A DNA stretch of 64,000 nt from positions 62,001 to 126,000 of the forward strand of contig CAIXUG010000064.1 of the NCBI GenBank assembly GCA_903922605.1, read 5' to 3'. The position numbers and the translations under genes were made by a program. Under the pieces are notes generated by a model. It was not told where the DNA came from and did no database searches. It saw nothing but the letters and a program-made list of their open reading frames with translations. Below, in pieces: positions 23,133 to 41,319 of the stretch; within the stretch, counting starts at the first letter, position 1, and every line of letters starts with the position of its first letter. This DNA is from an uncultured Verrucomicrobiota bacterium (lineage in GTDB: Bacteria > Verrucomicrobiota > Verrucomicrobiia > Limisphaerales > UBA9464).

Positions 23133-23518
23133 TCGGCTGCCAGCCAAGGCTTCATGGCTTTCGAGTCACGTCAACCCAAATGAATCCTACAGAATTTATC
23201 TCACTGACCCAAGGTAGCAGAAAAATTGCGAGTAGCAGCAAGGAACATCTTTCCAGCAGCCATCCAATGGCCTGCGGCTTAGTCGTGAATGCCCGTCGAA
23301 AGACAACTGCAATCCCTATTTGGTTTCAAATCGACGTAAAAGCCATCGGAAAATACGGCTACTCCTTAAGACTGCCATGCAAACGCATCATCACTGGAAC
23401 ACAATTTTTCGCGAAGCGACTGGCTTGAGGAACGCTGGTTTCGACACGATTGCTTTAAGTTTGCGGTTCCTCACTTGGCTTCTGCGCCAGCATCCGTAGT
23501 TTCGTGCCACTTCCGCGC
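23133..23518. other. 386-base gap without a recognisable gene
   Basis: Lower GC than the surroundings. Short open frames exist, but none has a start signal or family similarity. It must hold the divergent promoters of hicAB and the CotH gene; I cannot place them with confidence. Confidence 0.5.
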
Positions 23519-26500
23519 ATGACACGAATCCGTCTCTGGCTGACCGCCTTGCTTGCCCTCGTGACGTTATCGTCACAGGTGCGGGCCGTTGACTTGGTGC
23601 CTGTTCAGTCCCAATGGCGCTATCTGAAGGGAACCGCCGAGGCCTCTTCACCGGACGCGACCGCGTGGCGCCAGCCCGGCTTCAACAACGCCGGCTGGCT
23701 GAGCGGCCCGGCCACCTTCTGGTATGGCGACGTCTTCACCGGAACGCAGATCACCGACATGCAGAACAACTACTCCTCGTTGTTCTTCCGGACGAAATTC
23801 ACGGTGGTCAATCCCGCCGACATTGCGCAACTGGTGCTGCACGCCCAGTGCGACGACGGCTTCATCGTGTGGATCAACGGACACGAGGTGGCGCGTTATA
23901 ACGTCCCGGACGGGGATCTGCCCTACAACGCCTTCGCCCTCGTCGCCGTCAGTCCCGATCCGGCGGTGTTCAATGACTATTTGCTCGCGGACCCGAAGAC
24001 CACGTTGGTCGCGGGCGAAAACGTCATGGCCGTGCACGTCTTCAACGTGGCCCTGACCAGCAGCGACATCGTCTGGGACGCGGCCTTGCAGGCCACCTTC
24101 GACGAGACCGCACCGACCATCGCCCATCTTTATCCCACCGCCGGCGCGACGGTGCGTGAACTGGCCACCGTCGAGGTGGAATTCAGCGAGGCGGTGACGG
24201 GCGTGGATGCGGGCGACCTGCTGATCAATGGCGTTGCCGCGAGCGCCGTTTCCGCAGTCAGCCCGGCGCAGTACGTCTTCAGCTTTCCCAAAGCGGCCGC
24301 CGGCCAGGTCACGGTGGCCTTCAGCAAGGGACATGGCATCACCGACCTCGCCGGCACGCCGCATCCGTTTGGCGGAGGTTCGTGGACCTACACCGTCACC
24401 CCCGACCTGATTCCCCCGGGCATGGAGATCAGCGAGTTCATGGCCGACAATCAGAAGGGCATCCGCGATGAGGACGGCGATCGTACCGACTGGATCGAAA
24501 TCCATAACGGCACGACCGAAACCCTGTCGTTGACCGGCTGGGCACTGACAGACACCGCCTCGGACCTGGCCAAATGGCAGTTCCCGCCGCTGACTCTGCC
24601 CGCCAACGCCTACCTGCTCGTCTATGCCTCGGGCAAAAACCGGACGAATGCCGCCGCCCCGCTGCACACCAGCTTCAAACTCGGCAGCAGCGGCGGCTAT
24701 CTGGCACTGGTGACACCGGGCGGCGAAGTCATGTCGGAGTTCAGCCCGACCTACCCACCCCAGCGGGCGGATGTCAGCTATGGCCGGGCCACCGGGGCGC
24801 CCAATGTCACGGGCTATTTTGTCAAACCAACCCCCGGAGCGGCCAACACGACCGGCGGGGCCGGCTTTGCGCCGGACGTGATCTTTTCCACTGCGGGCGG
24901 GACTTTCACGACCGCCTTTCAGCTCACCCTGTCCCTGGGCGATACCAACAGCAGCGCGGTCATTCACTACACGACCAACGATACGCTGCCCGATACGAAC
25001 AGTCCCGCCTACACCGGGCCGATCAGCATCGGCAATCCCATGCGAATCCGGGCGCGGGCCTTCGCCGACGGATTGCTGCCCGGCACACCGCACAGTGAAA
25101 CCTATCTGCGCATGGCGCCCGCCCTGGCCACGTTCACTTCGGATCTGCCCATCATGGTCATCCATAATTTCGGTGCCGGGCGCCCGCCCGACACCGGTTC
25201 GCAGAACGGACAGTTTGAAGTCTATGAGCCGGTCAACGGTGTCACCTCGCTCACCAATGCGCCGGTCTTCACCAGCCGCGTCGGCATCGGGGCGCGCGGT
25301 TCCAGCACGCTCGGCGACGCGAAAGTGAACATGAGCCTCGAACTCCATGACGAGTTTGACGCCAGCCTCAATTACCAGCTGCTGGGCCTCCCGGCGGAAT
25401 CCGACTGGGTGCTTTACGGGCCGGACGCCTTCGAGCCGGTGCTGATCCACAATCCCTTCATGCACCAGCTCAGCCGCGACATCGGGCGCTACTCGCCCCG
25501 TACCCGGTTCGTGGAGGTGTACCTGGTGACCAGTTCGGTCCAGTCGCAGGTGACTTCGACGACCTACTTCGGAATCTACGTGCTCGAAGAAAAGATCAAG
25601 CGCGGCAAGGACCGCGTGGATATTGACGAAGTCCTGCCCCAATTCACCAAATCTCCCCAGATCACCGGCGGCTACATGATGAAGATCGACCGGCCCGGAC
25701 CGGGCGAAAGCGGCTTCTACGCGGCCAACCAGGGCATCATCTACGTCGATCCCAAGGAGCGGGAAATCACCCTGCCGGAATGGTCCGCCCAGCATCAGTA
25801 CCTCCAGAATTACATGAACGCCTTTGGCAACGTCCTGTACGGGGCCAACTGGACGAACCCCACCAACGGCTACGCCGCCTACCTCGATCCCGACTCGTGG
25901 ATCGACCACCATCTGCTGAACATCCTCGCGCTCAACGTGGACGCCCTGCGCCTGAGCGCGAACTTTTATAAGCCGCGCAGCGGACGCCTGGAATTTGGCC
26001 CGCTGTGGGACTTCGACCGGTCCCTGGGTTCCACCGACGGACGCGACTTCAATCCGCGGCTGTGGAGCGGCCAGCAGGGGGGCGGCACCGACTTCTTCAA
26101 CGAGACGACCCAGGCCTGGTGGGGCCGGCTGTTCCGCGACCTGGAATTTTACCAGCGCTATATCGACCGCTATCAGGCACTGCGCCAGAATCAGTTCTCC
26201 ACGACCAACCTGTGGCGGCTGACCGACAGCATGGTCAGCCAGATCCGCCTGGCCCAGCCCCGTGAACGGACGCGCTGGGGCGGCAATTACCGGACCGCCA
26301 GCGGCGGCGGCGGGGGCACCTATGCCACCGAGGTGCAGTGGATGAAGAACTGGCTCTCCAACCGCGTGTCGTTCATCGACAGCCAGTTCGTGCGGCCGGT
26401 GGGCATTACGACACCGGGAGGACCGTTCACCAACACCACTCAGGTCACCCTCAGCAGCGCGACCGTCGGCACCACCTATTACACGCTCGATGGCAGCGAT

Positions 26501-28585
26501 CCGCGACTGCCCGGCGGCGGCCTGTCGCCCAAGGCCAAGACGTATGACGGCACGCCCATCCAGCTGAGCGCGAACGCCCGCATCGTCGCCCGGGTGCAAA
26601 ATCCGGCGCACACCGCCCTCACCGGTGTCGAGAAGCCGCCGCTGATCTCGAAATGGTCGGGCCCCGTGGTTGACACCTTCTACAACACCATGCCGCCGCT
26701 GCTCGTGACGGAAATCATGTTCCATCCGCCGGCGCCCCCGGCGGGTTCGACCAATTCGGCGGGCGATTTTGAGTTCATCGAGCTGAAGAACACCTCCAAC
26801 CATTCCCTGAGCCTGGTCGGCTTCCAGATCGCCGGCGCAGTCTCGTTCACGTTCCCGGCCAATGGCCCCCTGACCACCCTCGGGCCGGGCGGCCGCACCC
26901 TGGTCGTGCACAACCGAGCCGCATTCCTCACGCGCTACCCCACGGCACCGGGCATTGCCGGCGAATACACCGGCCAGCTTTCCAACGGCAACGGGCACAT
27001 CCGCGTGATCGGACCGTTGCAGGAGCCGGTGAGCGACTTCGCCTACGATGACGGCTGGGCACCGCTGGCGGATGGCTTCGGCTTTTCGCTCGTGCTGCGT
27101 GGCGAGAGAATACCCCCCGATCGGCTCGGTGAGCCGGCCAGTTGGAGGCTCAGCGCGAAGGTCGGGGGTTCGCCGGGAACGCCCGATCCCCTCCCCGTAA
27201 GCGTCCAACCGGTGCTCGTCAACGAGACGCTGGCCAACAGTCAGGCACCCCTGCTCGACAGTGTGGAACTCATCAACGCCGGCGCCGCGGCCCAGGACAT
27301 CGGCGGCTGGTGGCTCACGGATGACTATCACACGCCGCAGAAGTACCGCTTGCCTGCCACCACCGTGATTCCGGCCGGAGGTTACGCCGTGCTCGATGAA
27401 AACCAGTTCCGCCCCGGGGGCAACGGCAACATCGGCTTCTCCTTCAGCTCGCAGGGCGACGAGGCCCATCTGTTTTCCGCAGACGCCACTGGCGAACTCA
27501 CGGGCTATCATCACGGCCTGAGTTTCGGAGCCTCGTTTTCCGGCTTCAGCTTTGGCCGGCTGGTAACCAGCGAGGGACGCGAGCATTTCGTCCCCCAATC
27601 CGCGCGTTCCTTCGGCAGCGCCAACCTCGGACCACAGGTCGGGCCGGTGATCGTCTCGGAAATCAACTATCATCCGGCCGACAACGGCACCACCAACAAC
27701 ACGGCGGACGAGTTCATCGAGCTGCGGAACATCTCCGCCGGCCCGGTGTCGCTCTTCGATCCGGCGCACACGACCAACCGCTGGCGGTTGCGCGGGGCGG
27801 TGGACTTCGATTTCCCCACCGACGTGACCATCCCGAGCGGAGAGTTTGCCCTGGTCATCAGCTTTGATCCGGCCACGAATGCCACCCAGCTCGCCGCGTT
27901 CCGCAGCCGCTTCAATCCGCCGGCCGCCACCCCGATCATCGGCCCCTGGCAGGGTGCCCTGAACAACGCGGGGGATTCAGTCCGCCTGCTGGCACCCGAC
28001 GCGCCGGTGGCTGGCAACGATACGCCGCCTTACGTGGTGATCGATGAGATCGAATACCAGCCAACCCCACCGTGGCCGACCGAGGCATCCGGCACCGGCA
28101 ACTCGTTGCAGCGCATCGCCAGCCGACAGTACGGCGATGAACCCAACAACTGGTTTGCCGCCGCCCCGAGTGCCGGATTGCCCAATCTGCCCAGCGACTT
28201 CCTGGGTACCGACGCTGATGGTGATGGCCTCCCTGACGAATGGGAAACCGCGCAGGGCCTTGATCCCCATTCCGCCATTGGTGATGACGGTGCGAATGGC
28301 GATCCGGATGGGGATGGCTTCACTAATGCGCAGGAATTCGTTGCCGGCACCAATCCGAAAGACCCGGCCAGCCGGCTTCAGCTCAGCCCCGTCGCGGACG
28401 ACGACCGGACGCTGAGCTTCCAGGCCCAAGCCGGTCACAGTTACACCATCCGGACCCGCTCCAGCCTGCAAGATGAGCCTTGGCAGGTCTTGAAATCATT
28501 TCCGGCGCAACAGGTTCCGGCCGTTCTTGAATTTGACGCTCCCAAAACCGAAAGCGCGCGCTTCTACCAGCTTTCGACCCCCTGA
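23519..28585 (+). CDS. Giant secreted CotH-kinase/lamin-tail-domain protein
   Basis: A 1688-residue secreted protein after a signal peptide ending SSQVRA. Order: a beta-sandwich opening (about 25-195, WRYLKGTAEASSPD, DDGFIVWINGHEVARY), a bacterial Ig-like domain (about 200-300), a lamin-tail domain (ISEFMADNQ), a chitobiase-C-like domain, the CotH kinase region (about 540-960; VLEEKIKRGKDRVDI and GPLWDFDRSLGS), another chitobiase-like domain (YYTLDGSDPR), three further lamin-tail domains (LLVTEIMFHPP, LVNETLANS, VIVSEINYHP), and calcium-binding type repeats (DADGDGLPDEWE, DPDGDGFTNAQEF). CotH phosphorylates spore-coat proteins in Bacillus; in Verrucomicrobiota the role is unknown. ATG 23519 is preferred to GTG 23504. 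Confidence 0.88.
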   Translation: MTRIRLWLTALLALVTLSSQVRAVDLVPVQSQWRYLKGTAEASSPDATAWRQPGFNNAGWLSGPATFWYGDVFTGTQITDMQNNYSSLFFRTKFTVVNPADIAQLVLHAQCDDGFIVWINGHEVARYNVPDGDLPYNAFALVAVSPDPAVFNDYLLADPKTTLVAGENVMAVHVFNVALTSSDIVWDAALQATFDETAPTIAHLYPTAGATVRELATVEVEFSEAVTGVDAGDLLINGVAASAVSAVSPAQYVFSFPKAAAGQVTVAFSKGHGITDLAGTPHPFGGGSWTYTVTPDLIPPGMEISEFMADNQKGIRDEDGDRTDWIEIHNGTTETLSLTGWALTDTASDLAKWQFPPLTLPANAYLLVYASGKNRTNAAAPLHTSFKLGSSGGYLALVTPGGEVMSEFSPTYPPQRADVSYGRATGAPNVTGYFVKPTPGAANTTGGAGFAPDVIFSTAGGTFTTAFQLTLSLGDTNSSAVIHYTTNDTLPDTNSPAYTGPISIGNPMRIRARAFADGLLPGTPHSETYLRMAPALATFTSDLPIMVIHNFGAGRPPDTGSQNGQFEVYEPVNGVTSLTNAPVFTSRVGIGARGSSTLGDAKVNMSLELHDEFDASLNYQLLGLPAESDWVLYGPDAFEPVLIHNPFMHQLSRDIGRYSPRTRFVEVYLVTSSVQSQVTSTTYFGIYVLEEKIKRGKDRVDIDEVLPQFTKSPQITGGYMMKIDRPGPGESGFYAANQGIIYVDPKEREITLPEWSAQHQYLQNYMNAFGNVLYGANWTNPTNGYAAYLDPDSWIDHHLLNILALNVDALRLSANFYKPRSGRLEFGPLWDFDRSLGSTDGRDFNPRLWSGQQGGGTDFFNETTQAWWGRLFRDLEFYQRYIDRYQALRQNQFSTTNLWRLTDSMVSQIRLAQPRERTRWGGNYRTASGGGGGTYATEVQWMKNWLSNRVSFIDSQFVRPVGITTPGGPFTNTTQVTLSSATVGTTYYTLDGSDPRLPGGGLSPKAKTYDGTPIQLSANARIVARVQNPAHTALTGVEKPPLISKWSGPVVDTFYNTMPPLLVTEIMFHPPAPPAGSTNSAGDFEFIELKNTSNHSLSLVGFQIAGAVSFTFPANGPLTTLGPGGRTLVVHNRAAFLTRYPTAPGIAGEYTGQLSNGNGHIRVIGPLQEPVSDFAYDDGWAPLADGFGFSLVLRGERIPPDRLGEPASWRLSAKVGGSPGTPDPLPVSVQPVLVNETLANSQAPLLDSVELINAGAAAQDIGGWWLTDDYHTPQKYRLPATTVIPAGGYAVLDENQFRPGGNGNIGFSFSSQGDEAHLFSADATGELTGYHHGLSFGASFSGFSFGRLVTSEGREHFVPQSARSFGSANLGPQVGPVIVSEINYHPADNGTTNNTADEFIELRNISAGPVSLFDPAHTTNRWRLRGAVDFDFPTDVTIPSGEFALVISFDPATNATQLAAFRSRFNPPAATPIIGPWQGALNNAGDSVRLLAPDAPVAGNDTPPYVVIDEIEYQPTPPWPTEASGTGNSLQRIASRQYGDEPNNWFAAAPSAGLPNLPSDFLGTDADGDGLPDEWETAQGLDPHSAIGDDGANGDPDGDGFTNAQEFVAGTNPKDPASRLQLSPVADDDRTLSFQAQAGHSYTIRTRSSLQDEPWQVLKSFPAQQVPAVLEFDAPKTESARFYQLSTP

Positions 28586-32563: not shown

Positions 32564-33319
32564 TCAATAGAGGAACTTGTCGCCTTCCGCAACTGCGACA
32601 TCACCCTGCTTCCAATCCGGCAGCAGATTGGCGATCGAGCGGTTCTTCTCGACACTGACGATGCGGGCCTTGCCGATGAGCTTGTCACCATGGCGGACCA
32701 TCACCACGCCGTGCTCCTTGGCACCCTGATCTTCGCCGGCGTCGAGCAGCACAAAGTCCCATTTGGCGTCCACGGCAAGGATGCTGCCCTTCAGGCCGGG
32801 CATCTCGACGAGCTTCTCGCTGTTGTCCTCGTAGCGGCTGAGCCGGGACCGGAGGCTGGCGATGTCGCGGATGAAGATTTTCTTCTCGTCGCTCAGGGCG
32901 TTGCGGGCCTCATTGGCATCACGCAGATCGGTCTGCAGCTTGACGACCTGATCGGGCTGGACACCCAGGGCCTGCCAACGGGCGAGCTCCTGGTTGGCCT
33001 CGTTGCGCTCCTTGCTGGCCTTGCTCAGATCCGTGGCCAGCTTGTCGGCCCGGGTCTTCTGCATGGTCGCGTCGTTGGAGGCGGTTTCGAGGGCCGACTT
33101 GGTTTCCGACAGCTCCTTGCCCGCCTTCTCGGCGTTGGCCTTGGCCAGCTTGGCGTCGGCTTCGGCCTTCCCCCGGGCGGCGGTTTCCGCCGTAAGCTTA
33201 TTCTGGGTGTCGCCCAATGTGGCGGTTTGCTGCTCGATGGCAGGCTTGGTGACAACGAAGTTGACGACCAGTGCGGCGATGCCGGCCACCAGTGCGAGAA
33301 CAAGAGCAAGACGAAGCAT
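32564..33319 (-). CDS. Membrane-anchored coiled-coil protein with C-terminal beta domain
   Basis: A 251-residue protein with one N-terminal membrane helix (about 3-23), a long Ala/Lys/Glu-rich coiled coil (about 28-165), and a small C-terminal beta domain (about 175-251, GSILAVDAKWDFVLLDAGEDQ, KLIGKARIVSVEKN, QGDVAVAEGDKFLY). The layout, though not the sequence, resembles MreC-like envelope scaffolds. It is cotranscribed with the small lipoprotein copy 2. Function unknown; a structural envelope role is likely. Confidence 0.65.
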   Translation of the reverse strand: MLRLALVLALVAGIAALVVNFVVTKPAIEQQTATLGDTQNKLTAETAARGKAEADAKLAKANAEKAGKELSETKSALETASNDATMQKTRADKLATDLSKASKERNEANQELARWQALGVQPDQVVKLQTDLRDANEARNALSDEKKIFIRDIASLRSRLSRYEDNSEKLVEMPGLKGSILAVDAKWDFVLLDAGEDQGAKEHGVVMVRHGDKLIGKARIVSVEKNRSIANLLPDWKQGDVAVAEGDKFLY

Positions 33320-33520
33320 GACTAAGGCGAGTTGAAAATTGTGACGGCACGACGCTACGGGTGCCCCGTAAAGGTGTCAACGTTCGCTTGCGTGAACGTG
33401 ACGGACGGATTTTCGGACGGCAGCAACGGGTGACCCGGAGACCCCGGAAATTACGGCTGAGCCACGGGAAAAGAGTCGGCGCAGCCGCTCGAAAATTAGC
33501 CGGATCGTTGCATTTGTTGC

Positions 33521-33549
33521 TTGTCAGGTCTGGGATTCAGGAGTTTAAA
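33521..33549 (+). promoter_or_regulatory. Promoter of TonB receptor 1
   Basis: TTGTCA (33521-33526), a 17-base spacer, and TTTAAA (33544-33549). Receptor 2 has the same elements with the same spacing, which makes this a strong prediction. Initiation is expected near 33556. Confidence 0.75.
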
Positions 33550-33552
33550 GCC

Positions 33553-33641
33553 TTCGTAAGCATGGCCAACCAAACTTGGCCATGGTGTGCAAACCCATAA
33601 TGCGGCCGTCCAAACTCCGGCCGCGGTTCTGTTACAACCGT
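33553..33641 (+). ncRNA. Structured mRNA leader of TonB receptor 1
   Basis: Hairpin 1: nine pairs between 33561-33569 and 33576-33584 with loop CCAAAC. Hairpin 2: GCGGCCG (33602-33608) with CGGCCGC (33618-33624), loop TCCAAACTC. The leader is about 90% identical to the one before receptor 2, and most changes keep pairing (A-U to G-U). An indel between the hairpins breaks any reading frame, so it is not conserved as coding DNA. It may be a cis-regulatory RNA; no known riboswitch class is recognised. Confidence 0.6.
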
Positions 33642-36600
33642 ATGAACTACACAGCCTGCCAACCGTCAACCCGTGTCGATTTCTATCGGCGCGCACTCCT
33701 CGTGGGCCTCGGTGCCCAGCTCATCGCCCCCTCCGCCTTTCTGCTGGCGGAAGACGCCTCCACCAAGGCGCCGGCCGAGATGAAGAAGACCGTCATCACC
33801 GGTTCCCTGATCCCCACCGCGGACACCGTCGGAACCTCCCCGATTGAGACGATCAGCAGCGCCGACATCCAGAAAGTGGGCGGTACGGACATCCTGCAGA
33901 CGTTGAAGGCCCTGAGCACCTCGTTCATGGGCAACGGCAACATCGGGCAGTCGCTGAACAACGGCGGTTTCGGCGAGGCCTATCTGGCCATCCGCAACCT
34001 GCCCACCCTGATCCTGGTCGACGGGAAACGGGTGAACATCAGCGCCTTCAGCACCTATGTCGGCACCTTCTCGGTCGATCTGAACACCATTCCGGTGGCC
34101 ATGGTCGACCGCATTGAAGTCCTGAAGGACGGCGCCTCGACCACGTACGGCTCGGATGCCATCGGCGGCGTCATCAACATCATCACCAAGCAGGGTTGGA
34201 ACGGCGCCGAGGTTTCCGGCCGCTACGGTTTTGGCCTCGACAAGGGGGTTTCCAATGAGGCCCGCGGCTCCGCCGTGATCGGTTACGCGAAAGACCAGAC
34301 GCGCCTCACCGTGGGCGCCAATTACTACTACTCCGACCCGATCTATGCCGGGGACCGGGGTCTCGCCGCCCTCGGGGTCAACGAGCTCGCGGCGGCGGGC
34401 TTGAACGCGCCCAGCTACATCAGCGGCAACTATCCCGGACGGGCGGGCAATTACATTCTGGCCGGCTCCCCCCTGGCGGTGGGCGCGCCCGGATACAGGG
34501 CGGGGCTGAACGCGCCGCCGATCGTCAGTGGCGGACCCTTTGCCTCGGTTGCCGATTACAACGCCGCCGCCTTCCAACAGCTGGGATATGATCCCTATAT
34601 CCTCATCAATTCGACGCCGGCCAGCCAGGCCCTGGGGGGATCGAAAACCATTTTCAACACGACCGATCTCCACCCGGTGACCATCCAGCGTCAGGATCGT
34701 CGGAACGTGGTCGGCAATCTGGAACAGGACCTGTTCCAGGACCACCTCACCTTCTACGCCCAGCTGCTTTACTCCAAGACCGAGAGCCTGGCCCAGCTGG
34801 CCCCGTCACCGGTCAGTTCACTGGGCCTCTACAATCTGTTCGTGCCGGCCAACAATCCGTACAACCCCTTCGGAACGGACACGGGACTGGGCGCCGCGGC
34901 AAACTACGGCATCCGCACCCGCCTGATCGAGACTGGCAACCGTCAGTTCAACACCGACTCCGATGCGCTTCACGCCGTGGCCGGGTTCAAGGGCGATGTC
35001 TTCGAAGACAAATACCACTATGACATCAGCGTCGATTACAGCCGGACGCAGCAGGAGCAGGTCCAGAACAGCGCCGGCTCACCGGCGCTGAACCTGGCGA
35101 TGACGCCCCTGGCCGGGTCGAGCACGCTGAGCCAGTTGAAGGATTCCAGCGGAAACTACGTGCCGCTCTACAATATCTTTGCGCTTCCGGGCTTCAACAG
35201 CCCCCAGACGATCAAGGCCATCACCGCCTCCGGTTTCCAGACGGGCTTCTCCGACCTGCTCGCCGTGGAAGGAACCATGCGGGGGGAAATCTTTGACCTG
35301 CCCGCCGGACCGTTGCAACTGGCCGTCGGTGGCCAGTATGTCGGCGAGAGCCTCAGCCTGGCCTCCGATCCCCTGCTCGCCTCCGGAAATCTCATCGGCC
35401 TGGGCAGTTACCCGATCTTTCCCGGTGGCAACCGCGACCGTGTGGCGGGGTTCGTCGAGGCGGCCATCCCACTCACCTCCCCCCAGCAGGGGATCCCGGG
35501 ATTGTACCGGTTCGACCTTTCGGCCTCCGGACGCATTGAGTACTTGGATTCATTGAACAACTCCAAGTCCTCAACCGTTCCCAAGGTGGGCTTCCGCTGG
35601 CAGCCGCTGGACGAGCAGGTGACCATCGCCGGCACCTATTCCCAGGGCTTCGTGGTGCCGGCACTCACCCAGCTTTACGGGCCGGCCGTGTCAAGCGACC
35701 CCTACATCGTCCTGCCGGATGATACCAACGGATTCAAACCCTCGGCGACCCAGAACGGACAGGTCAATTTCCTGAGCAACTCCGACCTGGGGCCGGCCTC
35801 CTCCGAGACGTTCACGACCAGCCTCACCTATTCCCCGAAGCAGATCAAAAATCTGACCCTGGAAGTCAGCTATTATCACATCACTGAGACGGATGTGGCC
35901 TTTTACCCCACCGCCACCGCCGTGGCGGCCGATCTCAACCAGAATGGCGCGGCGTCCACCTGGGTGAACAACCCGAATCTTCATGGCGCCCCCATTTACC
36001 TCGACCAGAACAACAACCCCTATGTGCCCACGGCGGGGGTCCAGTCCACCTACATCAATGCCAGCAACGTCGGGATATTCAACCTCCCCCTCATGCCGGG
36101 TGGCGCGCTGCGGACCCAGGGCTTTGATGTGTCGGGCGACTACCTGCTGGATACCGGAGCGGCGGGCACGATCCGGTTCTTTGCCCAGGCGAACATCCTG
36201 CTCACCTACGAAATCAAGCTGCCGGGCGGTTCGGAATACCTGAACTACAAGGGGCAATATACCGACACCCAGGCCGTGGCCGCTCCCCAGGGGATGATCC
36301 CGAACTACAACATCACGGCCGGCTTCACGTGGAGCTACCGGGATTTCGACTACACGGTCGTCGCGCACTATCTGCCCGGAGTGATCGACTTGGGCGACCT
36401 CCATCCCTCGGTGGGTGCGCCGGCCAATGATTTCACGGCCAGCGGAGCCGCCTGGCATGTGCCGGCCTACTACAAGATCGACATGCAGCTCGCCTACACG
36501 TTCAAGAGCCCCGAGAAGAAGTGGTATGACAATACCCGCGTCGCGGTCGGCCTGAACAACGTGACCGACGAGCAGCCCAAGCTGATCGCCTCATCCTCCG

Positions 36601-36674
36601 AGGACAACACCGACAAGTCGTCTTACGACATCATCGGCCGTTTCCTCTACGTCGAGGTTTCCAAGAAGTTCTGA
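33642..36674 (+). CDS. TonB-dependent outer-membrane receptor 1
   Basis: A 1010-residue TonB-dependent receptor. The signal peptide contains STRVDFYRRALLVGLGAQL and ends near LLAEDA. The plug (about 50-180) shows VITGSLIPT, AIRNLPTLILVDGKR, VDRIEVLKDGASTTYGSDAIGG and INIITK. The remainder is a 22-strand-type barrel closing with YVEVSKKF and the usual terminal Phe. It would import a large scarce nutrient, perhaps a glycan or metal chelate, using TonB/ExbBD encoded elsewhere. ATG 33642 is chosen because the upstream leader has a frame-breaking indel relative to its paralog; ATG 33600 is the alternative. Body diverges strongly from receptor 2. Confidence 0.9.
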   Translation: MNYTACQPSTRVDFYRRALLVGLGAQLIAPSAFLLAEDASTKAPAEMKKTVITGSLIPTADTVGTSPIETISSADIQKVGGTDILQTLKALSTSFMGNGNIGQSLNNGGFGEAYLAIRNLPTLILVDGKRVNISAFSTYVGTFSVDLNTIPVAMVDRIEVLKDGASTTYGSDAIGGVINIITKQGWNGAEVSGRYGFGLDKGVSNEARGSAVIGYAKDQTRLTVGANYYYSDPIYAGDRGLAALGVNELAAAGLNAPSYISGNYPGRAGNYILAGSPLAVGAPGYRAGLNAPPIVSGGPFASVADYNAAAFQQLGYDPYILINSTPASQALGGSKTIFNTTDLHPVTIQRQDRRNVVGNLEQDLFQDHLTFYAQLLYSKTESLAQLAPSPVSSLGLYNLFVPANNPYNPFGTDTGLGAAANYGIRTRLIETGNRQFNTDSDALHAVAGFKGDVFEDKYHYDISVDYSRTQQEQVQNSAGSPALNLAMTPLAGSSTLSQLKDSSGNYVPLYNIFALPGFNSPQTIKAITASGFQTGFSDLLAVEGTMRGEIFDLPAGPLQLAVGGQYVGESLSLASDPLLASGNLIGLGSYPIFPGGNRDRVAGFVEAAIPLTSPQQGIPGLYRFDLSASGRIEYLDSLNNSKSSTVPKVGFRWQPLDEQVTIAGTYSQGFVVPALTQLYGPAVSSDPYIVLPDDTNGFKPSATQNGQVNFLSNSDLGPASSETFTTSLTYSPKQIKNLTLEVSYYHITETDVAFYPTATAVAADLNQNGAASTWVNNPNLHGAPIYLDQNNNPYVPTAGVQSTYINASNVGIFNLPLMPGGALRTQGFDVSGDYLLDTGAAGTIRFFAQANILLTYEIKLPGGSEYLNYKGQYTDTQAVAAPQGMIPNYNITAGFTWSYRDFDYTVVAHYLPGVIDLGDLHPSVGAPANDFTASGAAWHVPAYYKIDMQLAYTFKSPEKKWYDNTRVAVGLNNVTDEQPKLIASSSEDNTDKSSYDIIGRFLYVEVSKKF

Positions 36675-36698
36675 TTCCGGCTGCACGCCAAACATACA

Positions 36699-36730
36699 GG
36701 GCCGGTCCTTAAGGACCGGCCTTTTTCTTT
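36699..36730 (+). terminator. Terminator of TonB receptor 1
   Basis: Arms GGGCCGGTCCTT and AAGGACCGGCC followed by TTTTTCTTT. The terminator of receptor 2 has almost the same sequence. Confidence 0.85.
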
Positions 36731-36857
36731 AGGGCAAGCCCGGCATCTGTCCTCATCAAAAACCCCTTTCCGAGAACTGCACCCGGGCAGTCGGAATAAT
36801 TTCCGGCGCAGGCGAATCCGGCGGCCGGAAAATTCACCTGCCCGCCGGATTTCCTGC

Positions 36858-36886
36858 TTGTCACCTTTCCGATTCAGGGCTTTATA
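36858..36886 (+). promoter_or_regulatory. Promoter of TonB receptor 2
   Basis: TTGTCA (36858-36863), a 17-base spacer, and TTTATA (36881-36886), equivalent to the promoter at 33521. Confidence 0.75.
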
Positions 36887-36889
36887 GCC

Positions 36890-36979
36890 TTCGTAAGCAT
36901 GGCCACCCAAACTTGGCCGTGGTGTACAAACACACAAATGCGGCCGTCCAAACTCCGGTCGCTGTTCTGTTACAACTGT
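36890..36979 (+). ncRNA. Structured mRNA leader of TonB receptor 2
   Basis: Counterpart of 33553-33641. Hairpin 1 (36898-36921) keeps eight pairs, one as G-U, and the CCAAAC loop. Hairpin 2 keeps GCGGCCG opposite CGGTCGC with one G-U pair and the same TCCAAACTC loop. The leader starts a few bases after the predicted transcription start. Confidence 0.6.
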
Positions 36980-39835
36980 ATGAACTACACAGCCTACCAC
37001 CCGTCAACCCGTGTCGATTTCTATCGGCGCGCCCTCCTCGTGGGCCTGGGAGCCCAGCTTCTCGCCCCCGCCGCAATCCTGCTGGCGGAAGACGCGTCCA
37101 CCAACGCGCCGATGGAGATGAAGAAGACCATCATCATCGGTTCCAACATCCCCACCGCCGAGACCGAAACCGCCCAGCCCGTCGACATCTATGACCGGGC
37201 CAAGATTGACCGGATGGGTGTGACCACCGTGAACGACCTGCTCCAGCGCGTGCCCCAGGCCAGCGCGGCCGGATTGAACGGCAACAACGGGGGCACCGGC
37301 TTTGCCTCGGGCGCAACTGGGGTTTCCCTCCGTGGCCTGGGTTTGAATGCCACGCTCATCCTGTTGAACGGCCGGCGGATCGCCCCCTATGGCTTCGCGG
37401 ACAATGGGACCGACGCGTTTGTCGATCTGAACGCACTGCCCCTCGAGGCGATCGAATCGGTCGAAATCCTGAAAGCCGGCAATTCCGCCCTCTACGGCGC
37501 CGACGCCATCGCCGGCGTCATCAACATCAAGACCCGGAAGGATTACCGCGGTGGCGAACTGGATTTCTTCTACGGCAACACGCAGCATCAGGACGCATCG
37601 ACCGTGAAGGGCTCCATCACGTTTGGGGCCGGCAATGACAAGACCGACGTGATGATCGTGGCGGACTATTATCACCAGAACGACCTGTTCAACCGGGACC
37701 GCCCCTTCTCGGCGATCAACAACCTGGCACCGTTGGGTGGTGCCAACCTGGGCAGTTCCTACGTTTATCCCGGCCGTTTCACGGTGCCGAGAAGCGCACC
37801 AGGACTGGCCGGCACCCCTTACGCCGCGGCGACCGGCTCCATCACGCTGGTGCCGCCGATCGACACCAACGGTTCGGCCCCCGCCGGCAGCTACCATCCG
37901 TTCACCGACGCCGACCGTTATAACTTCAACTCGTCGTCCCAGGCGCTCCCCCGCTCGGAACGCATGGGCGTGTTCGGCACCTTCAACCACAAGATTTTCG
38001 ACGAAAAGGTCGAGGCCTTTGGTGAAATCATGTTCCGCCATCTGGATGAGCACATTGAGCTCGCACCCTCAACGCTTGACCTCTCGGGCTCGGGCAGCGG
38101 CCAGGGCATTCCCTTGGGCACGGTGACCATCGACCAGGGCGTGCGCACGGTGGGCAACCAGCTCGTCATTCCCGCTTCCAATCCCTTCAATCCGTTCGGG
38201 GTGGACCTCTCCACCGGACGCGAGCGCATGGTGGAGGCCGGCAACCGCACTTACGACATCGACACGGACGCCTACCGGTTTGTCGGCGGGTTGCGGGGCG
38301 AGATCAACGAGCACTTCAGCTACGAGACGGCGGTCCTCTACAATCGCGCCCAGACGATCGACAACGCGCACGCCCTCAGCCTGAATGCGATCCAGGCGGC
38401 CCTGAATGACACCAACCCCGCCACGGCCCTGAACCTGTTCGGCGGGCCAAGCGCACCGAACAATCCCGACACGATCAACGGGATCAAGGTCAGGACCACG
38501 GAGATCGGCACCACCGAGCTGCTGTCCTGGGATGCCAAGTTCTATGGTGATGTGTTCACCCTGCCCGGCGGCACCGTGCAATATGCGGCCGGCGTCGAGT
38601 ATCGGACCGAGCAGTTCTCCGACCGCCATGACCAGCTCCAGCTGGATGGCGCCATCGTCGGCCAGACTCCTTCGCTGGACAACTCAGGCCGCCGCGATGT
38701 GACCAGCGCCTACGTGGAAAGCCGCATCCCCATCACCGGGCCGAAGTGGAACGTGCTGCCCTTCTATCGGTTGGACATCACGGCGGCGGGACGGCTGGAC
38801 CACTATAGCGACTTCGGCACTTCAGAAGTCCCCAACGTCGGCATTGAGTGGCGTCCCTTCAACGAGGAATTGCTGCTCCGGGCCTCGTACTCGGAGAATT
38901 TCCGTCCGGCCTCGCTGCAGCAGCTCTTCAACCACGCCCTGGACGCCCTCAGCGGGACACCGTTCACCGATCCGCTCCGGGGTACTCCGGTGCAGGAAGT
39001 TAACCTCAAGAGTGGCGGCAATCCCAACTTGCAGCCGGAAACCGCCTCCCAATGGACGGCCGGCCTGGTGTATACCCCGGCGTTTGCCAAGGGCCTGAAA
39101 GCCTCGGTGGACTGGCTGCAAATCAAGCGGGTGAACGAAATTGGCACGACCTCCGACTATTTCGGCTACGACTATGTGGCCGTACAGCCCGGACGATATA
39201 CCCGGGCACCGTATGAGGGCGATGCCGCCTTCATGGCCTCCAATCCCGGCTTGCCCCTGCCCGCAATCGACCCCGCCACTGGACAGCGCGCGGGTGAGCT
39301 GCTGTCGCTGAATGACTCCTACGCCAACCTCGGCGCCACCATCTCCGACTACATTGACTTCGGACTCAATTATGAGCTGCCGACCGACACGGCCGGAACA
39401 TGGTCCTTCGGCCTCAACTCCACGTATCTGCTCAGCTTCCGCATCCTGGACCCGGCCTCCGGAACATATCTTCCGCAGGACGGACAGGTCTATTACAGCG
39501 GCACGGACGGCCTGCCCAAGTGGCGGACCACGGCCAGCGCGTTCTGGAACTATCGCAAGTTCGAGATCGGCATCTTCGCGAACTACATTGGTGAAGTCGA
39601 CTACAGCAATCCGGTCACCGGCGACCCCATGACCGTGGATGGCTTCCTGACGTTCGATGTGCAGGCATCCTACAAGCTGCCGTGGGACGTCAAGGTCACC
39701 GTCGGTGTCAACAACATCGCCGATTCGGCCCCGCCGCTCTATGTCGGTGAGAGCAACAGCAACTTCGCCTACCTGAGCAGCCTCGAGAGCCCGCTCCAGC
39801 GTTACTACTACTTCTCGCTCCAGAAGAAGTTCTGA
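36980..39835 (+). CDS. TonB-dependent outer-membrane receptor 2
   Basis: A 951-residue TonB-dependent receptor with a signal peptide nearly identical to that of receptor 1 (STRVDFYRRALLVGLGAQL). The plug reads IIIGSNIPT, DLLQRVPQASAAG, VSLRGLGLNATLILLNGRR, VEILKAGNSALYGADAIAGV. The barrel ends YYYFSLQKKF with terminal Phe. Plug and barrel differ markedly from receptor 1, and it is about 60 residues shorter, so the ligand is probably different. Promoter, leader, signal peptide and terminator match receptor 1, suggesting exchangeable receptor bodies in a common expression frame. ATG 36938 is an alternative start. Confidence 0.9.
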   Translation: MNYTAYHPSTRVDFYRRALLVGLGAQLLAPAAILLAEDASTNAPMEMKKTIIIGSNIPTAETETAQPVDIYDRAKIDRMGVTTVNDLLQRVPQASAAGLNGNNGGTGFASGATGVSLRGLGLNATLILLNGRRIAPYGFADNGTDAFVDLNALPLEAIESVEILKAGNSALYGADAIAGVINIKTRKDYRGGELDFFYGNTQHQDASTVKGSITFGAGNDKTDVMIVADYYHQNDLFNRDRPFSAINNLAPLGGANLGSSYVYPGRFTVPRSAPGLAGTPYAAATGSITLVPPIDTNGSAPAGSYHPFTDADRYNFNSSSQALPRSERMGVFGTFNHKIFDEKVEAFGEIMFRHLDEHIELAPSTLDLSGSGSGQGIPLGTVTIDQGVRTVGNQLVIPASNPFNPFGVDLSTGRERMVEAGNRTYDIDTDAYRFVGGLRGEINEHFSYETAVLYNRAQTIDNAHALSLNAIQAALNDTNPATALNLFGGPSAPNNPDTINGIKVRTTEIGTTELLSWDAKFYGDVFTLPGGTVQYAAGVEYRTEQFSDRHDQLQLDGAIVGQTPSLDNSGRRDVTSAYVESRIPITGPKWNVLPFYRLDITAAGRLDHYSDFGTSEVPNVGIEWRPFNEELLLRASYSENFRPASLQQLFNHALDALSGTPFTDPLRGTPVQEVNLKSGGNPNLQPETASQWTAGLVYTPAFAKGLKASVDWLQIKRVNEIGTTSDYFGYDYVAVQPGRYTRAPYEGDAAFMASNPGLPLPAIDPATGQRAGELLSLNDSYANLGATISDYIDFGLNYELPTDTAGTWSFGLNSTYLLSFRILDPASGTYLPQDGQVYYSGTDGLPKWRTTASAFWNYRKFEIGIFANYIGEVDYSNPVTGDPMTVDGFLTFDVQASYKLPWDVKVTVGVNNIADSAPPLYVGESNSNFAYLSSLESPLQRYYYFSLQKKF

Positions 39836-39864: not shown

Positions 39865-39896
39865 GGGCCGGTCCTCATGGACCGGCCTTTTTCTTT
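39865..39896 (+). terminator. Terminator of TonB receptor 2
   Basis: GGGCCGGTCC and GGACCGGCC arms with a CAT-containing loop, then TTTTTCTTT. It closely matches the terminator at 36699. Confidence 0.85.
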
Positions 39897-40047: not shown

Positions 40048-41319
40048 ATGGCCAATACGATTCTCGTCGGCGCCCAATGGGGCGACGAAGGCAAGGGCAA
40101 GATCATCGACGTGCTCACCGAGCAGGCCGAGATCGTCGTCCGCACCCAGGGCGGCAACAACGCCGGGCACACCGTTTACGTCGGGCCCGTCAAATACGTC
40201 CTGCACCTCATTCCCAGCGGCATCCTGCGGGCCGACAAGGTCTGCGTGATCGGTAACGGCGTCGTGCTGGACCCGGTGAGCCTCGTGGGCGAGATCGACG
40301 GCCTGGAAAAGCTCGGAGTGAAGGTGAACCCACAGAACCTGCTCATTTCCGAGACCGCCCACGTCGTTTTCCCCTGGCACCGTGAGCTGGACGGCCAGCG
40401 CGAGGTCCGCAAGGGCAAGCAGAAGATCGGCACAACCAAGCGCGGCATCGGCCCGACCTACGGCGACAAGGCCGCTCGCGTGGGCCTGCGCGTGATCGAC
40501 ATCCTCAACCCCAAGCGCTTCGCCGAGAAACTGCGTGAGCGGCTCGACGAGAACAACGAGGTGCTCAAGGCCTTGGGCGCGCACCAGTTGGACTACGACC
40601 AGCTCCTGGCCGACTACTCCAAGGCCGCCGACCGGCTCCGTCCGTTCGTCACCAACACGGTCATTTACCTGCACAAGGCCACCCGCCGCCACGCCAACAT
40701 CCTGTTCGAAGGCGCGCAGGGCACCTTCCTTGACCTCGACCACGGCACCTACCCGTTTGTCACCTCCTCGAACACAACCTCCGGCGGCGCCTGCACCGGT
40801 TCGGGCGTGCCCCCGAACCGCATGGACCGCGTGGTCGGTGTGATGAAGGCCTACACCACCCGCGTGGGTGAGGGGCCGTTGCCGACAGAAAATGCCGAGA
40901 TCTCCGACCTGCTCCACGGCATGGGCCGCGAATTTGGCGCCACCACCGGCCGGGCACGCCGGTGCGGCTGGTTTGACGCCGTCGCCACGCGGCATGCCGC
41001 GATGGTCAATGGCATTGATGAGCTGGCCATCACCAACATCGACGGCCTGGACTCGCTCAAGACCATCAAGGTCTGCACCGGCTACCGTGTCGATGGCCAG
41101 TTGCTCGACTACGTTCCCGCCGATTGCGAAGTGCTCGCCCGCTGCGAACCGGTGTTCCAGGAGTTCCCCGGCTGGCAGACCTCGACCGAGCAGATCACCT
41201 CCTGGGAGGCGCTGCCGGTAAACTGCCGCCACTACCTGCTGACCCTGGCGCAGCTCACCAACGCCCGCCTCACCATTGCCAGCGTCGGTCCCGCCCGCGA
41301 ACAGACGATGTTTCTCTAG
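40048..41319 (+). CDS. purA: Adenylosuccinate synthetase
   Basis: Joins IMP and aspartate with GTP to form adenylosuccinate, the first committed step to AMP. The 423-residue enzyme shows the signature QWGDEGKGKIIDVL near the start, GGNNAGHTVYV, KRGIGPTYGDKAAR, EGAQGTFLDLDHGTYPFVTSS (split by the P-loop-like site) and RVGEGPLPTE. ATG 40048 gives the standard N terminus MANTILVGAQWG. Expression probably depends on the terminator in its leader. Its product is handled by PurB at 9268. Confidence 0.96.
   Translation: MANTILVGAQWGDEGKGKIIDVLTEQAEIVVRTQGGNNAGHTVYVGPVKYVLHLIPSGILRADKVCVIGNGVVLDPVSLVGEIDGLEKLGVKVNPQNLLISETAHVVFPWHRELDGQREVRKGKQKIGTTKRGIGPTYGDKAARVGLRVIDILNPKRFAEKLRERLDENNEVLKALGAHQLDYDQLLADYSKAADRLRPFVTNTVIYLHKATRRHANILFEGAQGTFLDLDHGTYPFVTSSNTTSGGACTGSGVPPNRMDRVVGVMKAYTTRVGEGPLPTENAEISDLLHGMGREFGATTGRARRCGWFDAVATRHAAMVNGIDELAITNIDGLDSLKTIKVCTGYRVDGQLLDYVPADCEVLARCEPVFQEFPGWQTSTEQITSWEALPVNCRHYLLTLAQLTNARLTIASVGPAREQTMFL

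Follow-up and report, generated by a model that had tools for sequence, protein, structure and literature searches.

Homogenised 5' blocks and a probably functional leader hairpin in two TonB-dependent receptor genes at a variable locus of a Verrucomicrobiota genome

The stretch of DNA studied here (hereafter the window) covers 64,000 nucleotides (nt) of an uncultured Verrucomicrobiota bacterium (assembly GCA_903922605.1, contig CAIXUG010000064.1, positions 62,001 to 126,000). It includes two tandem genes of TonB-dependent receptors, A (1010 amino acids, aa) and B (951 aa), which lie between the gene of a coiled-coil protein (coil) and purA. The 5' blocks of these two paralogues were almost certainly homogenised, by gene conversion or an equivalent exchange, before the genome holding the window (G000; a 5.3 Mb assembly in 90 contigs; relatives are designated G001 etc.) split from its sister genome G004. 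This conclusion is drawn from a conflict between two trees: the tree of the 5' block groups the sequences by genome, whereas the tree of the receptor bodies groups them by type. With moderate confidence we favour a broader reading, in which the interval between coil and purA is a variable receptor slot, the front end of one receptor has been copied to the other, and a 5' hairpin selected as RNA likely shields the mRNA.

An initial annotation of the sequence had reported that A and B share the promoter, leader, signal peptide and terminator but not the bodies. Both promoters, each with a 17-nt spacer, are present at the hexamers it named. The two front ends have about 310 bp in common, which run from the promoter through the two-hairpin leader and signal peptide to the TonB-box region and are 85-90% identical, and a DNA search with a 226-base query gives 89% identity across query bases 4-222. 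In windows of 30 alignment columns, 20-29 of 30 positions agree from 33500 to 33828, 9 agree at 33829-33858 and 10-17 agree onward to 34083; the shared block ends with this abrupt fall in identity at about 33828 in receptor A. Within the block, the stretch MKKTVITGS.IPTA is what we take, judging from its position only, to be the expected TonB-box site. The signal peptides are near-identical and the bodies dissimilar, as described: A and B agree at 41 of 55 positions of the signal block (residues 1-56), against 27-35% identity in the remainder of the protein. The bodies are related, since the complete proteins are 30% identical over 1068 aligned columns. The terminators also proved near-identical. 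Their common pattern, GGCCGGTCC-4-GGACCGGCC-TTTTT, occurs exactly twice in the G000 assembly (control, 0), and a terminator common throughout the genome is thus rejected.

Pfam identifies both products as TonB-dependent receptors, with a Plug domain in A and both Plug and the PF00593 barrel in B above the cut-offs; no match of A to the barrel is listed at E 0.001. Neither protein is assigned to the SusC/RagA family, as TIGR04056 gives 27 and 32.8 bits with a cut-off of 368.25. Homologous loci in named records belong in five of six cases to Verrucomicrobia metagenome-assembled genomes; the remaining locus, in Novosphingobium, matches at 24%.

Orthologous pairs of A and B are present in G004, G005, G007 and G001, which belong to the same genus as G000. 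In the tree of the 5' block (17 rows, 268 columns; C-type receptors left out), A and B of the sister genomes G000 and G004 are united with support of 100/99.9; a clade of all A sequences is rejected at a cost of 94 lnL (p 3e-52), and a clade of all B sequences is rejected as well (p 3.4e-5). The tree of the bodies (a quick tree of 16 rows and 986 columns, with the truncated A of G001 and the C-types left out) groups A with A and B with B at 99-100 and rejects a paralogue clade of G000 and G004 (p 4e-8). Its long-branch warning concerns deep joins between types and has no bearing on the relation of A to B. Thus for the ancestor of G000 and G004 one segment goes by genome and another by gene, both with support, which is the mark of gene conversion. 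Pairwise identities tell the same: the 5' blocks of A and B within G000 are 89% identical in DNA, against 55% for the A blocks of G000 and G005, and the A bodies of the latter two genomes are 84% identical, against about 30% for A and B bodies.

It could be supposed that no exchange took place and that the blocks are alike through a shared need for promoter, leader and signal peptide, by purifying selection or convergence. The leader is indeed constrained (see below), and 14 receptor genes of the genus have the signal-peptide core RR..L..GLG.QL (by which they were selected). However, constraint would act across species too, and therefore the identity of only 55% between the A blocks of G000 and G005 makes constraint alone inadequate. 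Synonymous sites speak against this explanation as well: A and B agree at 28 of 35 four-fold sites of the block in G000 and, more weakly, at 19 of 32 in G004, with 75 of 160 and 68 of 151, respectively, in the bodies. Nor does a constraint on the signal peptide explain the terminators, which are near-identical between A and B in G000 and G004 and unlike in G005 or G007. As the tree tests also reject it, we regard independent likeness as most improbable and count it refuted for G000 and G004 unless the tree is badly misled.

The A and B blocks of G005 are 74% identical, against 60% between its B block and that of G007, which is suggestive of a second conversion; the trees do not demand one, as a group of the B blocks of G005, G007 and G001 is not rejected (approximately unbiased (AU) test, 0.42). 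Furthermore, the A body of G005 is grouped with that of G000 and not with that of G007 (AU 7e-7), while the rest of the locus is closer to G007 than to G000 (purA 92% vs 87%, coil 85% vs 68%, B bodies 87% vs 68%). Because the A body sides with G000 and purA, coil and B side with G007, these data point to a receptor body having been transferred from one species to another.

The arrangement of receptors between coil and purA was determined by tblastn of 16 stretches. The order coil-A-B-purA is found in G000 and G004, and coil-B-A-purA in G007; G005 has the latter order across a contig break, and G001 has coil-B-A up to the contig end. A receptor of a third type (D) lies beside purA in G002 and G003 and beside coil in G014 and G020 (genus g8), and an A-type receptor lies beside purA in G008 (genus g2). 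Neither border gene is seen within the DNA read of five stretches (G015, G021, G010 and the C-types of G007 and G006). We also started from purA, which was found in 44 genomes of the family, and read 30 of these loci up to 1.5 kb upstream (73, 516 and 1021 bases in three shorter cases). A receptor is located directly upstream of purA in seven of them (six of the same genus and G008), and coil is located about 1.2 kb from purA in two (G027 and G033, genus g7), with a prepilin-like gene between them and no receptor; the remaining 21 loci have neither a receptor nor coil in the DNA read. Thus in one genus coil and purA lie near each other with no receptor between them, and in the genus of G000 they flank one or two receptors of varied types in both orders. 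An "empty" slot in genus g7 was considered and dropped, because the 1.2 kb contains the prepilin-like gene of about 300-350 aa. The product of this gene (L181, L187) starts with FTL(I/V)ELLVV(I/V)AIIAIL(V/A)AMLLPAL.

The initial annotation proposed an expression cassette with interchangeable receptors. As evolutionary history this is supported, by the tree conflict and by the varying types and order of the receptors beside coil and purA.

The leaders of A and B in G000, described earlier as about 90% identical, differ at 8 of 92 gap-free columns and by one 1-nt indel. The hairpin loops CCAAAC and TCCAAACTC and a CAAAC between the hairpins are as claimed. The claim that leader changes mostly keep the pairing stands for the most part: both hairpins pair in all four leaders of G000 and G004 (60 of 60 cells), and the two variable stem pairs show wobble changes only (U-A to U-G and G-C to G-U). 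It does not hold for the A-T pair that closes hairpin 1 in copy A, as this pair is missing in the other three leaders.

Beyond these two genomes the sequence of the stem changes and its place is retained. In 14 of 15 leaders the best uninterrupted stem begins 8-15 nt past the -10 hexamer, and the loops measure 6-20 nt; when 13 leaders were shuffled, the best stem fell in this range in 13-27% of cases. A short 5' stem-loop thus recurs in three genera at a similar spacing after the -10 and with different stems. The exception is the B leader of G001, where a longer interrupted stem begins 4 nt after the -10; at spacing 17, the B promoters of G007 and G001 have a poor -10 (TTTGGC and TTTTGG, respectively). 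Taken leader by leader the stems are not remarkably strong; combined, stem strength against shuffles gives p 4e-4 for 7 chosen leaders and 2e-4 for 10, and folding energy gives p 8e-4 for 8 chosen leaders and 5e-3 for 10. The near-copies G004_B and G021 were left out of the stem test, and G004_A, G000_B, G004_B and G021 were left out of the shuffles.

Covariation in relatives is present and thin. Compensatory double changes were found at two of six counted pairs between the B leaders of G007 and G001 (G-C to A-U, with the loop kept) and at one of seven in genus g2. Only six of about ten pairs could be counted in the former comparison because the MAFFT alignment shifts the lower stem out of register.

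The constraint on the leader is well supported by comparison with synonymous sites of the orthologues in G000 and G004. The A leaders are identical at 87 of 92 positions, against 471 of 547 four-fold sites (p 0.026), and the B leaders at 90 of 93, against 392 of 496 (Fisher test, 6.5e-6); stem positions are unchanged at 30 of 30 in both comparisons. Given that the 5' stem-loop recurs across three genera and that the leader evolves at a lower rate than synonymous sites, the leader is probably functional. An RNA hairpin near the 5' end is supported, because the two arms differ together, the gaps between them vary and the changes among the four leaders of G000 and G004 keep wobble pairs.

A cis-regulatory RNA shared by a regulon of receptors, the other proposal of the initial annotation, did not find support. 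The leader precedes just two of the seven Plug-domain receptor genes of G000, and DNA and covariance searches of this genome find it nowhere beyond A and B. A covariance model was built from the four close leaders of G000 and G004 and run against 50 genomes of the family with Infernal's stricter filters. It recovers these four at 119-123 bits, so that no further copies of weight appear at the sensitivity of the model, which misses diverged leaders of the same slot. The 12 further matches are weak (E 0.028 to 9.7), and the best of them, in G007, is a terminator-like hairpin. The idea of a regulon-wide RNA is therefore not supported by the DNA search of the genome itself, by the N-termini of receptors or by the search of 50 genomes with a model blind to diverged slot leaders. 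Rfam gives no matches over the gathering score in the window; for 33400-37200 there are three sub-threshold matches, none of them over the leaders.

In diverged relatives the layout is kept and the sequence is not: CTTGTC is followed by a leader with an early stem. Within the genus CTTGTC is found upstream of 12 of the 14 genes with the signal-peptide core, the two without it being C-types. Outside the genus, 22 family loci were read upstream; five were taken as having the layout (three of genus g2 and two of genus g8), and six of the remaining 17 have CTTGTC within 260 nt. The same is true for four of 22 loci read upstream in order-level relatives (245 genomes). Two receptor homologues, L108 (G061) and L135 (G228), have one in-frame stop each (TGA and TAG, respectively) and are perhaps pseudogenes or assembly errors.

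Several other explanations of the leader have to be weighed. The main rival is a docking site, where CCAA(A)C loops would be read by an RNA-binding protein or a small RNA with joint control of both receptors. It is the main rival because G000 (95.8% complete) encodes two proteins with RNA recognition motifs (RRM; G000:C18:53312 and G000:C14:5497) and gives no Hfq match. CCAAAC or CAAAC occurs in both loops and the linker, CCAA occurs in the hairpin loops of the ten A/B-type leaders of the genus and of G008 and G021, and CAAACC occurs in G015; in addition, according to the excerpt of PMC11697453, FopS and RbpB act on the translation start region of susC. However, the motif is weak evidence, because the loops of D-types lack CCAA (TAACC in G002 and G003, CCCAG in G014 and G020) and all loops and unpaired parts are rich in C and A, so that the motif may reflect composition. 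With no other gene found to have the leader, we consider docking doubtful. Unlikely in our estimate is also an active exchange, in which the shared 5' block, together with the terminator in G000 and G004, would serve as homology arms for swapping bodies within and between Verrucomicrobia species, and the hairpin loops would place incoming bodies under the same post-transcriptional control, perhaps via RRM proteins and without a recognisable Hfq.

The repeats could instead be DNA operators bound by a dimeric regulator: they follow closely on the promoter, the 9-bp inverted repeat that forms hairpin 1 of A is perfect, and four related leaders have CCGGCC/GGCCGG in common. However, the arms are separated by anything from 6 to 20 nt and have different sequences in different lineages, and the two stem changes among the four leaders of G000 and G004 keep RNA wobble pairs and break the DNA palindrome, which makes operators improbable. 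The conservation might also be that of a translated leader, either an N-terminal extension or a leader peptide (MxxQTWPWC...). In copy B the frame is open from the leader into the receptor (ORF 36899-39835), and 8 of its first 9 residues are the same in all four leaders of G000 and G004. In copy A, by contrast, the same upstream ATG opens 12 codons and then a stop, as the one-base indel ends the frame; the four in-frame substitutions (Leu/His, Pro/Ser, Arg/Leu and Arg/Cys) all alter the residue, and 13 listed leaders lack such an ORF. For these reasons a coding leader is rejected as the main cause of conservation and is highly improbable. The earlier argument that the indel rules out coding thus holds for copy A, while the frame of copy B stays open.

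We therefore return to the slot with a copied front end and an RNA hairpin. On this reading the interval between coil and purA is a slot for TonB-dependent receptors of differing body types, occupied by one, by two or by none, and A and B are old paralogues within it. As the tree conflict shows, recombination in the ancestor of G000 and G004 replaced the first ~310 bp of one of them, from the promoter to the TonB-box region, by those of the other, so that both bodies are now made from the same front end. The front end consists of a sigma-70-like promoter and a short leader; in most relatives its hairpin begins 8-15 nt past the -10, and the sequence between hairpin and start codon is rich in C and A and largely unpaired. 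Selection probably maintains the hairpin as RNA, which is supported and not proven. It would most likely shield the 5' end of the mRNA from decay of the RppH/RNase E type, like the stem-loops of the ompA class, and keep the ribosome-loading stretch open. Protection of the 5' end is proposed on the basis of the review PMC3997798, where 5' secondary structure stabilises mRNA since both RppH and RNase E depend on a single-stranded 5' terminus, and of the presence of an RNase E/G gene in G000. Our guess is an ompA-like 5' stabiliser or a translation element. Recombination would accordingly move ligand-specific bodies independently of the generic parts needed to make, export and energise a receptor.

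A number of observations weigh against this interpretation. With regard to exchange, only the event in the ancestor of G000 and G004 is firm, and the tree groups that were tested had been named after the identity tables were viewed. With regard to the hairpin, the evidence is modest: 6 of 15 leaders have a stem stronger than shuffles (p<0.05), as do 4 among 35 leaders of other receptors (33 outside the slot and two C-type, with start codons chosen by the authors). Shuffles of the 3' letters reach the covariation described above in 137 of 500 and 166 of 500 trials, which is not significant, and G003 breaks the simple stem of G002. Between A and B in G000 the leader does not change significantly more slowly than four-fold sites (84/92 vs 28/35, p 0.12; in G004 p 5e-4), and within the leader no significantly lower rate is seen in the stems than elsewhere. 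The signal-peptide core is also present in C-type receptors, which have no such promoter or hairpin. Finally, the stabiliser role is deduced from the position of the hairpin relative to an inferred start site, and the two-hairpin form of G000 and G004 exceeds the need of a 5'-end shield.

Uptake receptors need a changeable ligand specificity with expression, export and TonB coupling intact. The locus shows a simple route to this: the front end has been homogenised between paralogues, and the ligand-binding bodies have stayed distinct, changed their order and apparently moved from one species to another. It also offers a leader RNA that is small and accessible to testing, in a bacterium in which no Hfq is recognisable. 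The features of the locus are listed in Table 1.

Table 1. Features of the receptor locus in window coordinates
Feature	Position	Strand	Remarks
coil, coiled-coil protein gene, left slot border	32564..33319	-	adjoins receptor(s) in G000, G004, G005, G007, G001; also G014, G020 at 53% identity
Promoter of receptor A, TTGTCA-17-TTTAAA	33521..33549	+	read directly; TTGTCA 33521-33526, TTTAAA 33544-33549
Leader of receptor A	33550..33641	+	R1 covariance model match 33550-33644, 123 bits (leader itself in model)
Hairpin 1 of A, CATGGCCAA / TTGGCCATG, loop CCAAAC	33561..33584	+	
Upstream ORF of A (MANQTWPWCANP, stop)	33562..33600	+	read directly; not seen in other leaders
Hairpin 2 of A, GCGGCCG / CGGCCGC, loop TCCAAACTC	33602..33624	+	
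TonB-dependent receptor A	33642..36674	+	Plug PF07715 E 7.3e-16; codons 1 to ~60 in shared block
Terminator of A	36700..36726	+	exact pattern, 2 genome matches
Promoter of receptor B, TTGTCA-17-TTTATA	36858..36886	+	read directly; TTGTCA 36858-36863, TTTATA 36881-36886
Leader of receptor B	36887..36979	+	R1 covariance model match 36887-36982, 120 bits (leader itself in model)
Hairpin 1 of B	36898..36921	+	
Hairpin 2 of B, one G-U pair	36940..36962	+	
TonB-dependent receptor B	36980..39835	+	Plug E 1.8e-24, PF00593 barrel E 7.5e-35; codons 1 to ~60 in shared block
Terminator of B	39866..39892	+	same pattern as terminator of A
purA (adenylosuccinate synthetase), right slot border	40048..41319	+	PF00709 E 1.3e-179

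Some observations concern the surroundings of the slot and other receptors. Upstream of the slot, at 23504-28585, the window encodes a 1693-aa protein with CotH kinase and lamin-tail domains. In the promoter of B the spacer between the -35 and the -10 contains an inverted repeat, perfect in G001 (L015, CCGGCAATTGCCGG) and near-perfect in G007 (L014), which is a possible repressor site; none of the other listed slot promoters shows the repeat. A different TonB-dependent receptor (L063, L064, L066, L068 and L069 in G000, G004, G005, G001 and G007) has the inverted repeat GCCGGTC-11-GACCGGC 8-10 nt before the start codon in all five genomes, with a final T in the L064 version, and the stretch ATGGCGGAGG about 100 nt upstream. 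This repeat may be a riboswitch-like leader or an operator; Rfam gives no family match in four of the five loci (L064 was not scanned).

The titles and abstract beginnings surveyed in the literature contain no description of this receptor pair or locus. The closest precedent that we found is the segment-wise concerted evolution of homA and homB of Helicobacter pylori. In the excerpt of PMC2795765, homA/homB and babA/babB, the latter cited there, are paralogous genes of outer-membrane proteins in which one segment goes by strain, attributed to gene conversion, and another by gene. The converted part there is a 3' segment (segment 3), whereas here it is the 5' part with the promoter and leader; in addition, the terminators are alike here, and the order and type of receptors vary at the locus. 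Invertible outer-membrane loci of Bacteroides and shufflons are similar in that surface proteins are subject to recombination, but the shared blocks here are direct repeats, and no alternative arrangement within one strain was seen in the assemblies read; the search for a recombinase covered Pfam scans of 11 chosen window proteins. The leader resembles stabilisers of the ompA/papA class in that a stem-loop lies close to where the mRNA of an outer-membrane protein presumably begins; it differs in having two hairpins in G000 and G004. The RbpB/FopS system of Bacteroides thetaiotaomicron, which according to the part of PMC11697453 cited above exerts post-transcriptional control at the translation start of SusC mRNAs, likewise involves TonB-type receptors in a genome with RRM proteins. 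It differs from the present case in that A and B are not SusC by the TIGR04056 scores given above and the leader was found in two copies only.

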